Source: Thermodesulfobacteriota bacterium
GTDB taxonomy: Bacteria; Desulfobacterota; Thermodesulfobacteria; Thermodesulfobacteriales; Thermodesulfobacteriaceae
Assembly: GCA_030550555.1 (NCBI GenBank)
Contig: JAUQPD010000046.1
Location: 1-57,999 of the forward strand
Reading direction: 5' to 3'
DNA: 57,999 nt
Shown piece by piece: positions 19,457-28,425 of the stretch (the first letter of the stretch is position 1; every line of letters begins with the position of its first letter). The position numbers were made by a program, and so were the translations under genes. The notes beneath the pieces are model-generated. The model saw only the letters and a program-made list of their open reading frames with translations. It was not told where the DNA came from and did no database searches.

Positions 19457-21337
19457 ATGGATAAGAGATTCAAATACCTGACCAAGATAAATAGTCCTGA
19501 GGATCTAAAGAAACTTAAAATTTCGCAATTGAAAGTTCTTGCTGAGGAAATAAGGTCTTATATCTTGGAAGTTATTTCAAAAAATGGTGGCCATCTTGCT
19601 CCTAATCTAGGAGTTGTAGAACTTACCCTTGCCCTACACTATGTATTCAACACACCTGAAGATAAGATAATTTGGGATGTAGGTCATCAGTGTTATACCC
19701 ATAAAGTCATTACTGGAAGAAGAGACTTGTTTCCAACCATAAGAACCTATGGTGGTATCTCAGGATTTCCCAAAAGAGAAGAAAGTATTTATGACGTATT
19801 GAACACTGGCCATAGTAGTACCTCAATTTCCGCAGGTCTCGGCATGACAGTTGCTAAGAGGTTAAAAGGAGACAGGGGAAAGATTGTTGTAGTCATCGGT
19901 GATGGTTCTATAACTGCTGGCATGGCTTTTGAGGGACTCAACAATGCTGGTTATCTAAAAGAGGACCTTTTGATAATATTAAACGACAATGAGATGTCTA
20001 TTTCTCCAAATGTTGGTGCCCTTTCAACTTTTGTTTCTAAGAGGATGACAGGCAATCTTGCTCGCTTTTTGAGGAGAGAGCTTGAGAAATTTATGCATCG
20101 TTTCCCTGGAGGGGATAATCTCCTTCATCTCCTTAAAAAGGGAGAGGACCTTTTCAAAATGGCAGTGACCCCTGGTGCTCTTTTTACCGCTCTAAATTTT
20201 GAATATGTTGGTCCTGTAGATGGACATGATATTGAAAATTTAATAGATATACTGAAAAATCTGCGTAAAATGACGGGACCTGTGCTTTTTCATGTCATCA
20301 CTAAGAAAGGAAGGGGATATCCGCCAGCAGAGGCAGATCCAGAAACCTTTCATGGTATTAGCCCCTTTGATATAAAGACTGGAAAAGTTATCAAGTCACC
20401 AAACGAACCTCCCAGCTACACGGAGATTTTTGGTAAGACAATTGTTCGTCTTGGAGAGATGGAACCAAGATTAGTTGCAATTACCGCAGCTATGAAGTCT
20501 GGAACAGGTCTTAAAGCCTTTGCAGAGAGGTTCCCAGACAGATTTTTTGATGTAGGGATTTGTGAACAACACGCAGTCACTTTTTCTGTAGGGCTTGCCT
20601 TGGAAGGACTCATTCCTGTATGTGCTATCTATTCAACTTTCCTTCAGAGAGCCTATGATCAAATTATCCACGACGTAGCCATCAATAAAGCAAAGGTGAT
20701 TTTTGCAATAGATAGGGCTGGCCTTGTAGGAGAGGATGGACAGACCCATCATGGTTCCTTCGATCTCACCTATCTTCAGGCAGTTCCTGGTCTTATAGTC
20801 TGTGCCCCAAAAGATGAAAACGAATTACAACATCTTCTCTATAGTGCTCTAAAGTATGAGAGTGCCTGCGCTATACGTTATCCCAGAGGCTCCGGAGTAG
20901 GAGTTAGTCTTGATTGGGAGTTCAAATTCATCCCAGTTGGAAAGGCAGAGATTCTAAGAGAGGGAAAAGATGCAGTTATTTTTAGTATCGGCTCTATGGT
21001 CTACCCCTCATTTGAAGCTAGTCTTGAACTTGAAAAGGAAGGGTTTGATGTTGCAGTTGTTAATGTCAGATTTTTGAAACCCCTTGACAGCGATCTACTA
21101 CTTAGTTATGCTCAAAAAACTGGCAATGTCCTTGTTGTAGAAGAGAATACCCATATTGGCGGACTTGGTGCCTCCATTGCACAGTTACTTCTCAAAAATA
21201 GAGTCTTTGCTAACTTTGGACACATTGCCTTACCTGATGCCTTTATTGAACACGGAGATTTAAAGACACTTCGCGCAAAATGTGGTTTAACAAAAGAAAA
21301 TATAAAGGCAGAACTAAAAAAATTACTCTACCGCTGA
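19457..21337 (+). CDS. dxs: 1-deoxy-D-xylulose-5-phosphate synthase
   Basis: Thiamine-diphosphate enzyme that condenses pyruvate and glyceraldehyde-3-phosphate in the first step of the MEP isoprenoid pathway. Seen are GHSSTSISAGLGM, the cofactor motif GDGSITAGMAFEGLNN (about 153-168), NDNEMSISPNVG, DRAGLVGEDGQTHHG, and the C-terminal transketolase domain. The 626-residue length is standard. Together with ispA it supplies prenyl diphosphates. The end overlaps the start of a secreted Cys-repeat protein. Confidence 0.98.
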   Translation: MDKRFKYLTKINSPEDLKKLKISQLKVLAEEIRSYILEVISKNGGHLAPNLGVVELTLALHYVFNTPEDKIIWDVGHQCYTHKVITGRRDLFPTIRTYGGISGFPKREESIYDVLNTGHSSTSISAGLGMTVAKRLKGDRGKIVVVIGDGSITAGMAFEGLNNAGYLKEDLLIILNDNEMSISPNVGALSTFVSKRMTGNLARFLRRELEKFMHRFPGGDNLLHLLKKGEDLFKMAVTPGALFTALNFEYVGPVDGHDIENLIDILKNLRKMTGPVLFHVITKKGRGYPPAEADPETFHGISPFDIKTGKVIKSPNEPPSYTEIFGKTIVRLGEMEPRLVAITAAMKSGTGLKAFAERFPDRFFDVGICEQHAVTFSVGLALEGLIPVCAIYSTFLQRAYDQIIHDVAINKAKVIFAIDRAGLVGEDGQTHHGSFDLTYLQAVPGLIVCAPKDENELQHLLYSALKYESACAIRYPRGSGVGVSLDWEFKFIPVGKAEILREGKDAVIFSIGSMVYPSFEASLELEKEGFDVAVVNVRFLKPLDSDLLLSYAQKTGNVLVVEENTHIGGLGASIAQLLLKNRVFANFGHIALPDAFIEHGDLKTLRAKCGLTKENIKAELKKLLYR

Positions 21338-21750
21338 TTTTTACTATTCTGATACTTACTTTTCTATACACCTTTAGTGTTTTGTTTTTACATGCTCAAA
21401 CTAGATCAGAGAAGGAACTAAAAACATTCTGTAGAGATATAGAACCTACAAATCCCCTCTGCCTAAAGTGGTTTGACCTTACTAAAGAAAAACTGAAACT
21501 AGAAGGAACTCTTCGCCATTCCATTTCCCTCTTCTGCAACCAAAATCCACATAACCCAAATTGCAAAACACCCAAACAAATGCCAATCTTCACCTACTGT
21601 TTCCAGGTAGAGCCTGAAACTAATGACTGTGTGAGATGGAAATCTCTCAAACAAGCTGAATTGGAAGTTAAGGGTCTTTTAGCAGAGGAAATCCAAAAAT
21701 TTTGCATTACAAATTCAACCCATCCGCTCTGTAAAGCCAGAAAAAAATAA
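21280..21750 (+). CDS. Secreted protein with two tandem four-Cys repeats
   Basis: 156 residues. A basic N-terminus (1-14), a hydrophobic segment (15-36) and LHAQ at 37-40 make a signal peptide or anchor. The rest consists of two copies of one unit: Cys51-61-86-95 and Cys107-117-142-151. Spacing is C-x9-C-x24-C-x8-C in both, with a shared EP after the first Cys and a basic residue plus Trp after the second. All eight Cys and the offset of 56 are conserved, so disulfides are likely. I recognise no family. The ATG lies inside dxs (58-base overlap) and lacks an obvious ribosome binding site, so coupled translation is likely. Confidence 0.75.
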   Translation: MWFNKRKYKGRTKKITLPLIFTILILTFLYTFSVLFLHAQTRSEKELKTFCRDIEPTNPLCLKWFDLTKEKLKLEGTLRHSISLFCNQNPHNPNCKTPKQMPIFTYCFQVEPETNDCVRWKSLKQAELEVKGLLAEEIQKFCITNSTHPLCKARKK

Positions 21751-24701: not shown

Positions 24702-25898
24702 CTAATTATACCTTCTTAGAAGGCAAAGTAAAGATGCCTCCAAAATGCCATATTCGCTTATTATGAGCTCTTCTTTTTTGAATTTTCTCAGGATCTCTGC
24801 ATAAACAAGTAGCCCTGGTAAGGTTATGTCCTCTCTTCCCTCTTCCATTCCTTTGATTGAACGTATCCTCGGTAAGGTGAGTTCCCCAATACGTTGAATT
24901 AATTTTTCAATTCTCTCCATAGTTACGCGATGTCCATGTAGTCTCGCAGGTTCGTATCTCTGAAGTCTAAGGTCAAGTCTTCCAAGAAGACTAGCAGATC
25001 CTCCAGTGATAATAAGACATTCAAAGGGCTCTTCCGGAAGCACACTTAGTTGATCCCTAATATAATCTCTAATAGATTGAAGAGTCTTTTTGGTTACAGG
25101 ATAGCGTAGACGAAATGTATCTCTCAAAAGCACAACCCCTAAATCAAGACTCTTAACCCATACTGGCTCTTCCCCTTCTAAAAGGATAAATTCTGTTGAA
25201 CCTCCTCCGAGATCTACAATTAGAGCTCTATTAAAACCTATTTGTAGCTTTTTTAATCCAAATTTTATCCCCTCAAGAGTAAGATTAGCCTCTCTCTCTG
25301 GGCTTAGAACTTCTACCCTAAGACCGAGTTCTCTTTCTACCCTTGCCAGAAAGTCTCGAGCATTTTTTGCCCTGCGGAAGACAGCGGTGCCAACCGCATA
25401 ATAATTCCTGACCTCATATTCTTCCATAAGGCTCTTAAATTTCTCAAGGGCAAAGATTGCACGTTCTATTGCAGATTCTGAAAGTATGCCCTGATCCGCT
25501 ATCCCTTCACCAAGGCGAACATTTTCCCGAAAACTCGTAAGAAAAAAGACATCCTCACCAACCTTCTTTCCAAGGAGCATCCTGAAAGTCTGAGTACCAA
25601 GATCTAACCCAGCATAGAGGGGACTATTTAACCTTTCTTTCAACTCCTTGCCCATAGTGAAAACCGTTCTTACCTTGTTCTTAAGGTAGTATCGCTGTAA
25701 ATTCCTCGGATTGTTAAACATATAGGACCGTGTTTTTATTACTTTTAAGACTCCAAAGCCTCTTAGCTCGATAATTTTCTCTTCTTTAAGAGCTCCTGCA
25801 AGGAGCTCAAAGAATTGATCAACAAGATAGTCTAGATCTCTCTTTTCTAAATCAGGAAAATAGGAAAGAAGCCTTTCGCTAATTTCTCGTTTTGTCAT
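24702..25898 (-). CDS. HU/IHF-like domain fused to Ppx/GppA phosphatase
   Basis: 398 residues in two parts. Residues 1-91 look like a complete HU/IHF-type DNA-binding protein: MTKREISERL start, helix pair, LRGFGVLKV (45-53), an Asn-Pro at the arm position (63-64) and the terminal GKELKERLN (83-91). Residues 95-398 are a short Ppx/GppA exopolyphosphatase or pppGpp phosphohydrolase: YAGLDLGTQTFRMLLG, an acidic SPEREANL catalytic region, VDLGGGSTEFIL and ITGGSASLLG. There is no stop or frameshift between them. A DNA-tethered polyphosphate or (p)ppGpp enzyme is inferred. It sits between sppA and guaB. Confidence 0.85.
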   Translation of the reverse strand: MTKREISERLLSYFPDLEKRDLDYLVDQFFELLAGALKEEKIIELRGFGVLKVIKTRSYMFNNPRNLQRYYLKNKVRTVFTMGKELKERLNSPLYAGLDLGTQTFRMLLGKKVGEDVFFLTSFRENVRLGEGIADQGILSESAIERAIFALEKFKSLMEEYEVRNYYAVGTAVFRRAKNARDFLARVERELGLRVEVLSPEREANLTLEGIKFGLKKLQIGFNRALIVDLGGGSTEFILLEGEEPVWVKSLDLGVVLLRDTFRLRYPVTKKTLQSIRDYIRDQLSVLPEEPFECLIITGGSASLLGRLDLRLQRYEPARLHGHRVTMERIEKLIQRIGELTLPRIRSIKGMEEGREDITLPGLLVYAEILRKFKKEELIISEYGILEASLLCLLRRYN

Positions 25899-25903
25899 AG
25901 GTA

Positions 25904-26779
25904 CTAATTCTGAATTAGATAAAGGGCTTTGAGATGAAGATATTCAAAGAGCCTATACTGTAGAGAGGTTGCCTCCCCTAAGAGTCTATGGAAGATCCCC
26001 TTTTTAGGAGGAAAAAATACAACTTCTGCCCGCTCAAGATTAGCCATTTTTCTTGCTTCTTCAATTGCCAAAGAGAGATTTCCCAGGGCATCAATGAGGC
26101 CATGCTGAAGAGCCTCCTCTCCAGTATATATCATTCCATTTGCCAGGGCCCTTACTTTTTCTGGGGGGAGTCTGCGTTCCTCTGTGATTGCTCGCACAAA
26201 CTGTTCGTGAAGTTGATTTATCTTGTTCTGAAGATATTTTCTCTCCTCAGGCGTTAATTTTCTGACCGATGTTCCCGTATCCTTAAATTCTCCACTCTTT
26301 ATAATCTCTGCAGAGATACCTACCTTCTCTAAAAGCTTCTCAATATTTGCTAGTTGAATCATCACTCCAATACTTCCAGTTATTGTCCCAGGGCTTGCAA
26401 AAATCTTTTGACCAGCAAGTGCAAGATAAAGACCTCCCGAAGCAGCAACCCCTCCCATCGACACCACAAGAGGCTTCTTTTCCCTTAATATTTTGAGGTC
26501 CTCAAAAAGCTCCTGAACAGGACCTACTGCTCCACCTGGTGAATCTATTCTCAAAACAACGGCCCTTATGTCCTTTCGCTCCCTGATCTCTCTTATAGAT
26601 GGTAAGTATTCCTGAGCATCAAGAATTATACCCTTAACTTCGAGCACTGCTATCTTTGGCTTCCCAAACCCAGTATCCTTTAACCCAATTAATAATGTCA
26701 CAACAAAGCTTACTAATATCATAAAAACAACTAACCCCCCAATAAAGGCCAAACCATAAACAAGCCAGGGTCTCTTCAT
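25904..26779 (-). CDS. sppA: Signal peptide peptidase SppA
   Basis: Membrane-anchored serine protease that degrades cleaved signal peptides. Membrane helix at 9-33, the RIDSPGGAVGPVQ motif (78-90), nucleophile Ser114 in GGVAASGGLY and general base Lys166 in SGEFKD. Its 291 residues match the short SppA form with one protease domain. It overlaps the rpsA stop by 4 bases. Confidence 0.95.
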   Translation of the reverse strand: MKRPWLVYGLAFIGGLVVFMILVSFVVTLLIGLKDTGFGKPKIAVLEVKGIILDAQEYLPSIREIRERKDIRAVVLRIDSPGGAVGPVQELFEDLKILREKKPLVVSMGGVAASGGLYLALAGQKIFASPGTITGSIGVMIQLANIEKLLEKVGISAEIIKSGEFKDTGTSVRKLTPEERKYLQNKINQLHEQFVRAITEERRLPPEKVRALANGMIYTGEEALQHGLIDALGNLSLAIEEARKMANLERAEVVFFPPKKGIFHRLLGEATSLQYRLFEYLHLKALYLIQN

Positions 26780-28425
26780 GAGTTCTCTTTGTCAAGAGCT
26801 ATTTTTATAATTCTTCCCTTTTTTGAAGCCTCTTCCCTTGACTTATAAGCGAGATAATCCTCTTCCTCTATTTTCTCCTGATAGGCCTTCTCTGAGAGAA
26901 TTAGCCTCCTCTGAGAGGGCTCAAGTTCTATAATTAGCAATTTTACTTTTTCTTCGGAATCAAAGGAACCTTTAACTCTTCTCTCTCTTGAGATTTCGCT
27001 CCTTGGGAGAAGACCAACTATCCCCTCCTTAATCCTTACAAGATATCCCTTTCCAGGAATCTGTTTTACAATGAGACCTTCAACTACGTCACCAGTTTTG
27101 TAAGCTTCACAAAAATCTTGCCATGGGTCTGTGAGAAGATCCTTGATGCTGAGAAGTAGTCTCCTCTTTTGAGTATCTATCTCTATGACCTTTGCCCTGA
27201 CAATTTGACCAGGCTTGAAAATCTCTTGCAAATTTTCAATTCTCTCCCAAGAGACTCTGCTTGCATGAATAAATCCATCAACACCTTCTCTTACCTCTAC
27301 AAATAATCCAAAATCAGTAACAGTCTTAATTGGTCCTTCAACTATGTCACCTTCTTTAAGTTCCTGAGCTAATATTTCCCAGGGACTTGGCTCAAGTCTT
27401 TTCAGACTGAGAGTAAGTTTTCTTTTCTCAGGATCAATATCAGTTATTATGGCTTCAATGAGATCTCCCACTTGAACGATATCTCCAGGTTTTACTCCCC
27501 TCTTCCAAGAGATCTCACTTGCTGGAAGTAAACCTTCAAGCCCTGGCTCAATTTCTACGAAGGCACCAAAATTTTCCACTTTGACTACCCTGCAACGAAC
27601 ACGCTGATCAACCGTATAACGCTCATGAACATACTTCCAAGGATCTGCTTCAAGAACTTTGTGACTTACCTTCAATTTTCTCTTAACAGGATCCCATTCA
27701 ATAGCTTTAACTTTAAGGGTGTCCCCCTCTGAAATAGGAGTTTCATCTGGAAGAATGCGTCTACGAGTAAGTTCAGAAAAAGGTAGAAATCCAGTAAGGA
27801 CTCCCTCAAAGTCAATCAGAAAACCTCCTTTAACTCTGGCTTTCACTTTGCCTTCTAAAATACCATCCTCTTCAATTATCTTCACAATCTCCTTAAGTTT
27901 TCTCTCTTTTACCGCTTCGGCAAAGGCCCTCTGTGATACCACAAAGGCCCTTTCTCCTACTTGTATAACAAGAACTTCAATCTCATCACCCTGAAAAGGA
28001 TCTTCTGTTCTCAAAACCTGAGATCTTGGGAGAAATCCCGTAATTAACCCCTCGAATTTTACTTCATAACCACCTTTAACCTCTCTGTGAATTTTGACCT
28101 TAACTGGTTCTTTTTGAGAAAAGGCTTTTCTTAAGGTCTCAAGGGCTTTCTCCTCGAGTATCTTTCTTACCGAGAGCAAAACTTGCCCTTCAGGTGAGAG
28201 TCTTCTAACAACAAGGGCTTTTACAGTATCACCAACCCTGAAAATAGTCCTACCATAAGCATCAATTAATTCATCTTTCGGAAGTAGCGCCTCACGTTTA
28301 CTCCCTATATCCACAAAGGCATAATTCCTGTCCACCTTAAGGATAACTCCCTCAACGAGGGAGCCAATTTGAGGCTCAGATTCAATGAGATACTCCTCTA
28401 AAATTGCCTCGAAATTTTCCATCAT
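26776..28425 (-). CDS. rpsA: Ribosomal protein S1
   Basis: Six S1 RNA-binding domains in tandem, roughly at residues 18-87, 105-170, 187-260, 272-347, 359-431 and 445-515. The third to fifth are the best conserved (for example FGAFVEIEPGLEGLLPASEISW and FGLFVEVREGVDGFIHASRVSW). This is the full six-domain form of Gram-negative S1, which brings mRNAs with weak ribosome binding sites to the 30S subunit. Two consecutive ATG codons allow either start. Confidence 0.96.
   Translation of the reverse strand: MMENFEAILEEYLIESEPQIGSLVEGVILKVDRNYAFVDIGSKREALLPKDELIDAYGRTIFRVGDTVKALVVRRLSPEGQVLLSVRKILEEKALETLRKAFSQKEPVKVKIHREVKGGYEVKFEGLITGFLPRSQVLRTEDPFQGDEIEVLVIQVGERAFVVSQRAFAEAVKERKLKEIVKIIEEDGILEGKVKARVKGGFLIDFEGVLTGFLPFSELTRRRILPDETPISEGDTLKVKAIEWDPVKRKLKVSHKVLEADPWKYVHERYTVDQRVRCRVVKVENFGAFVEIEPGLEGLLPASEISWKRGVKPGDIVQVGDLIEAIITDIDPEKRKLTLSLKRLEPSPWEILAQELKEGDIVEGPIKTVTDFGLFVEVREGVDGFIHASRVSWERIENLQEIFKPGQIVRAKVIEIDTQKRRLLLSIKDLLTDPWQDFCEAYKTGDVVEGLIVKQIPGKGYLVRIKEGIVGLLPRSEISRERRVKGSFDSEEKVKLLIIELEPSQRRLILSEKAYQEKIEEEDYLAYKSREEASKKGRIIKIALDKENS

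Follow-up and report, generated by a model that had tools for sequence, protein, structure and literature searches.

The window, as we call the whole stretch of 57,999 nucleotides analysed here, encodes a 398-residue protein that reads without a gap from an HU/IHF domain into a short Ppx/GppA phosphatase (residues about 94-398). This fusion is a fixed feature of its order, the Thermodesulfobacteriales, and no one-off. We read the protein as a subunit of the IHF heterodimer that carries an alarmone phosphatase; this is the best reading overall, and we give it about an even chance of being right.

Architecture of the fusion protein

The initial annotation had proposed that an HU-type domain (residues 1-91) is joined in frame to a Ppx/GppA enzyme. 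Pfam domain limits, an AF2 model and the orthologues all bear this out. The features of the gene are as follows.

24702..25898 (-): fused gene, IHF-beta-type HU domain plus short Ppx/GppA phosphatase, 398 aa (ORF, Pfam, orthologues, AF2)
25626..25898 (-): HU/IHF domain, residues 1-91 (PF00216 at 1-91; residues 1-92 match IHF structures first by fold)
25659..25748 (-): DNA-arm region, residues 51-80, net charge about +8
25707-25712 (-): Asn63-Pro64 of the DNA arm, invariant in 34/34 orthologues (alignment)
25605..25628 (-): junction, residues 91-98 (N-SPLYAG-L) (AF2 and alignment)
24705..25619 (-): Ppx/GppA (ASKHA) domain, residues 94-398 (Pfam, alignment, Foldseek)

The profile PF00216 (Bac_DNA_binding) matched residues 1-91 over its full length (model positions 1-90 of 90) at 53.1 bits, above the 22.4-bit cut-off, which upholds the HU assignment against the possibility that residues 1-91 would score as non-HU. 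PF02541 (Ppx-GppA) covered residues 120-393 with 192.3 bits (cut-off 27). Among the HU-type models of NCBIfam, IHF-beta came first (residues 1-92): PRK00199 (54.9 versus 115 bits) and TIGR00988 (44.9 versus 119.95 bits) were the best-ranked HU-family models, although both stayed below their curated equivalog cut-offs. The top phosphatase model, exo_poly_only (TIGR03706; residues 95-390), likewise remained below its cut-off (216.8 versus 307 bits). Solved structures matched each half by sequence, Aquifex Ppx/GppA at residues 95-392 and IHF subunits at residues 1-93; none of the chains among the matches listed spanned both.

The AF2 model of the whole fusion, built with 42 related sequences, reached a pLDDT of 92.1 and a pTM of 0.83. 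About two residues link the HU helix 84-91 to the phosphatase strand 94-100. In an AF2 model of residues 1-92 (pLDDT 93.5), the chain adopts an HU fold with a two-stranded DNA arm. In Foldseek searches, the whole model matched Aquifex Ppx/GppA structures first, and residues 1-92 matched IHF chains best. Separate translation of the phosphatase half from an internal start was considered and rejected. No ATG or GTG lies at the junction between the HU end and the phosphatase start, and most orthologues have no in-frame ATG or GTG from the HU end to the phosphate loop. Two orthologues carry an ATG there, inside the first phosphatase strand and too late for a start, and start-like codons shortly upstream of the interval vary among orthologues.

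Conservation across the order

The order consists of hot-spring and vent bacteria. Relatives had been named as the place to look for conservation of the fusion, and 39 of the 41 genomes of the order that were searched contain it (Caldimicrobium, Thermodesulfobacterium, Thermodesulfatator); the named matches come from these three genera and from other Thermodesulfobacteriota MAGs. Of the two genomes that lack it, one has a completeness of 64% and the other (G023) of 93%. In G014, the copy is apparently interrupted inside the phosphatase by what looks like a frame break. An artefact that joined two genes by frameshift, assembly error or missed stop would suit a draft genome such as this one, and the outgroups do have two genes; however, 39 of 41 genomes share the architecture, several of them as single contigs. 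The recurrence of orthologues with 41-61% identity in almost all genomes excludes both chance and an assembly error, and we attach next to no probability to an artefact.

The junction is free of insertions and deletions in 34 distinct orthologues, and D99, R175, E203, D229 and E236 of the phosphatase are invariant in all 34. Pairwise identity averages 0.51 in the HU half and 0.49 in the Ppx half; thus, both halves are under comparable constraint. In a search of 198 genomes of the phylum, no match from outside the order, among the matches listed, covered both halves. The fusion had been thought undescribed, and we found no description of it in the open-access literature searched, a collection without most subscription journals and without the domain databases.

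Gene neighbourhood and origin

In enterobacteria, ihfB is linked to rpsA, and ihfA to pheST (PMC8942017). The fused gene has the following neighbours in the window.

25904..26779 (-): sppA (peptidase S49), directly upstream (Pfam; conserved order)
26776..28425 (-): rpsA (S1 domains), upstream, marker of the classical ihfB neighbourhood (Pfam; PMC8942017)
23202..24671 (-): guaB (IMP dehydrogenase), 30 bp downstream (Pfam; conserved order)

The adjacency to guaB in the initial annotation is therefore confirmed, and the order rpsA-sppA-[fusion]-guaB is conserved. Both sppA and guaB flank the fusion in all loci long enough to tell, and rpsA lies upstream in nearly all loci of sufficient length. 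In two genomes of the order (L016, L037), cca is followed by sppA and rpsA is absent from between. Elsewhere in the window, a small predicted secreted protein with repeated Cys motifs (FCxxxPxxPxC-like) is encoded after dxs at 21280-21750 (+).

Relatives outside the order keep the two halves apart. In the outgroup locus L047 (genome G073), rpsA-sppA-ihfB-ppx are four genes, with 20 bp from the end of ihfB to ppx, and this unfused syntenic ihfB passes the IHF-beta cut-off (118.1 versus 115). Three further loci (L044-L046) have the order rpsA-sppA-ihfB-(antisense YrdC/TsaC-like gene)-ppx-guaB. The antisense gene, named by eye, separates ihfB from ppx in one family of outgroups (L044 8100-8759, L045 7390-8001, L046 7087-7698). 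The placement of guaB beside ppx is old, being found also in L044-L046, L050, L051 and L057. As judged from these comparisons, the ancestral state is one of separate, neighbouring ihfB and ppx genes. Within an old rpsA-sppA-ihfB-ppx-guaB cluster, ihfB and ppx merged when the stop codon of ihfB and a short spacer were lost; as the comparison shows, this was a single event in the common ancestor of the order.

Such an origin raises the question of whether the merger was neutral, that is, whether the IHF subunit and the phosphatase work separately and uncoupled, the tether persisting because it is harmless. Because ihfB and ppx were already adjacent before the fusion (20 bp apart in L047), one small deletion suffices, and the junction is a direct splice that introduced no new domain. 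Yet each IHF-beta must then carry a 300-residue enzyme, none of the 34 orthologues has a junction indel, and the order shows no clear re-splitting, the break in G014 lying within the phosphatase. We regard a neutral merger as unlikely, though still the strongest of the rivals to a functional IHF-phosphatase subunit.

The HU half as IHF-beta

The HU-type domain of the initial annotation does belong to the HU family, but it is not a generic HU. The rpsA/sppA synteny, the NCBIfam ranking and an HU tree rule out that assignment and, as far as sequence comparison can tell, the HU half is the IHF-beta of the genome. A separate HU-family gene follows pheS-pheT in the order and corresponds to pheT-linked IHF-alpha; all genomes of the order in which this gene was looked for retain it. 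In the tree, the fused domains group with the sppA-linked free HU proteins of the outgroups (support 99/91), pheT-linked IHF-alpha forms a separate clade (100/99), with HU proper in a third; E. coli sequences served as landmarks. Because the alignment behind the tree is short in columns and E. coli IHF-beta falls outside the fused clade, synteny carries as much weight for the placement as the tree does. Three HU-family genes were found in the window genome (HU, pheT-linked IHF-alpha and the fusion), and no free IHF-beta. Elsewhere in the order, some genomes carry four or five genes of the HU family; these were compared in the tree and assigned in part.

The sequence of the HU half suggests that it dimerises and that it binds and bends DNA. 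Alternatively, it may have left the DNA altogether, its sole role being to dimerise or stabilise the phosphatase. In the window's family the arm does depart from the classical GRNPxTGE consensus, with drift in Caldimicrobium and Thermodesulfobacterium. Nevertheless, the invariant Asn63-Pro64 provides an arm-tip proline of the DNA-intercalating type, and the arm carries about as much positive charge as in free HU (mean +6.8 versus +7.3). Moreover, the genome would be left without IHF-beta while retaining its pheT-adjacent IHF-alpha. A purely structural role for the HU half is thus very improbable, and we continue to treat it as an IHF-beta that probably binds DNA.

The arm tip of pheT-linked IHF-alpha is Asn-Leu, not Asn-Pro, in several Caldimicrobium/Thermodesulfobacterium-type genomes, whereas Asn-Pro is retained in the fused IHF-beta. 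Paired with such an IHF-alpha, the heterodimer might intercalate on one side only. The Asn-Leu genes are:

L061, 2478-2774: pheT-linked IHF-alpha
L063, 2795-3088: pheT-linked IHF-alpha
L066, 3119-3412: pheT-linked IHF-alpha
L068, 3169-3462: pheT-linked IHF-alpha

The phosphatase half and its substrate

The fusion is the single Ppx/GppA of the window genome, in which no free Ppx/GppA was found. Its catalytic residues R175 and E203 and its metal-binding residues D229 and E236 match, by motif, those named in M. tuberculosis PPX1 (PMC3411833). At position 103 of the phosphate loop, the fusion has Gln103 as opposed to Asn in 9 of 11 outgroup proteins, a difference that could affect activity. One unfused outgroup ppx beside guaB (L051, 7229-8203, +) shares this unusual Gln (GSQTFR), which apart from this case distinguishes the fused proteins.

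Polyphosphate and (p)ppGpp had both been suggested as substrates. In a set of 36 genomes, three of which lie outside the order, Rel/SpoT was present in one copy in 35, PPK1 in none, and PPK2 in none over the cut-off; VTC was absent from all 41 genomes. The positive controls of all these searches matched. With no known polyphosphate synthase found and Rel/SpoT nearly universal, pppGpp is favoured over polyphosphate, and the sequence data make pppGpp or a related nucleotide the probable substrate. Polyphosphate as the main substrate is weakened rather than excluded; the substrate could instead be polyphosphate from another source, ATP or another nucleotide. The adjacency of guaB fits guanine-nucleotide chemistry weakly.

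Across the phylum, PPK1 is rare (18 of 198 genomes) though short Ppx/GppA is widespread. A cross-table of the matches listed, drawn up after seeing the data, ignoring relatedness and with the order's genomes not among the short-Ppx genomes, showed short-frame Ppx to be independent of PPK1 (10/116, p 0.81) and long-frame Ppx to be associated with it (9/15, p 2e-7). The cross-table argues against PPK1-made polyphosphate as the main target of the phylum's short Ppx. In M. tuberculosis, on the other hand, neither of the two short homologues cleaves pppGpp, and one has exopolyphosphatase activity (PMC3411833), which counts against a simple GppA assignment.

Proposed mechanism and significance

In the window genome, the sole IHF-beta and the sole Ppx/GppA reside in one chain. 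The HU half would pair with pheT-linked IHF-alpha or with itself, and its basic Asn-Pro arm would bend DNA, so that each DNA-bound dimer would carry one or two two-domain phosphatases. These would strip the terminal phosphate from pppGpp or a related nucleotide, and hydrolysis would then take place on DNA. The alarmone level would be physically linked to the amount and position of IHF, either by local turnover at IHF sites or by substrate-dependent IHF binding. A bolder version, in which the order-wide IHF is a chromosome-bound alarmone enzyme, one rigid chain that turns over pppGpp on the DNA bent by IHF and thereby feeds back on this DNA, is in our view possible but rather doubtful.

Alternatively, the Ppx/GppA half might mainly sense pppGpp/ppGpp or polyphosphate and alter DNA binding by the HU half, catalysis being secondary. 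The link of about two residues between the HU helix and the first phosphatase strand would, if modelled correctly, favour rigid coupling. Members of the family from M. tuberculosis are inhibited by (p)ppGpp (PMC3411833), (p)ppGpp affects ihf transcription (PMC8942017), and polyphosphate interacts with IHF (PMC7566177). The full conservation of the catalytic residues, however, exceeds what a pure sensor needs, and we consider a predominantly ligand-sensing IHF improbable beside an IHF subunit with an active phosphatase.

A connection between IHF and the stringent response is known at the level of transcription, as ihf expression responds to (p)ppGpp (PMC8942017). With IHF-beta permanently fused to the sole Ppx/GppA, this connection would become direct and physical, and the architecture of the chromosome may be coupled directly to alarmone chemistry. 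The fusion would provide a natural system in which to ask whether alarmones or polyphosphate are turned over locally at the nucleoid. It also bears on the role of short Ppx/GppA proteins in organisms for which no polyphosphate kinase is known, which is debatable because the M. tuberculosis short enzymes tested do not cleave pppGpp.

Comparison with known systems

The closest relative of the phosphatase half is Aquifex aeolicus Ppx/GppA (PDB 1T6C, 1T6D, 2J4R), the best match in sequence and fold to residues 95-392. It is the same two-domain short phosphatase with the same metal and catalytic residues, but it lacks the HU domain and has an SNS loop where the fusion has TQT. The GppA proteins of E. 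coli and H. pylori and E. coli Ppx (PDB 6PBZ, 6PC0-6PC3, 1U6Z) are homologous in catalytic domains I-II; they possess extra C-terminal domains that the fusion lacks, and no DNA-binding part. IhfB/HimD has the fold, the neighbouring rpsA and the arm Asn-Pro in common with the fusion, and of the HU-type models in NCBIfam its own rank best for the fusion. The fusion differs from it by scoring below the IHF-beta equivalog cut-off (54.9 versus 115 bits), by the added C-terminal phosphatase and by its diverged arm sequence. Nearest in organisation is the unfused ihfB-ppx pair of the outgroups (L047, L044-L046), which shares the order rpsA-sppA-ihfB-ppx(-guaB) and whose products are orthologous to the two halves of the fusion, but which consists of two genes with 20 to about 680 bp between them.
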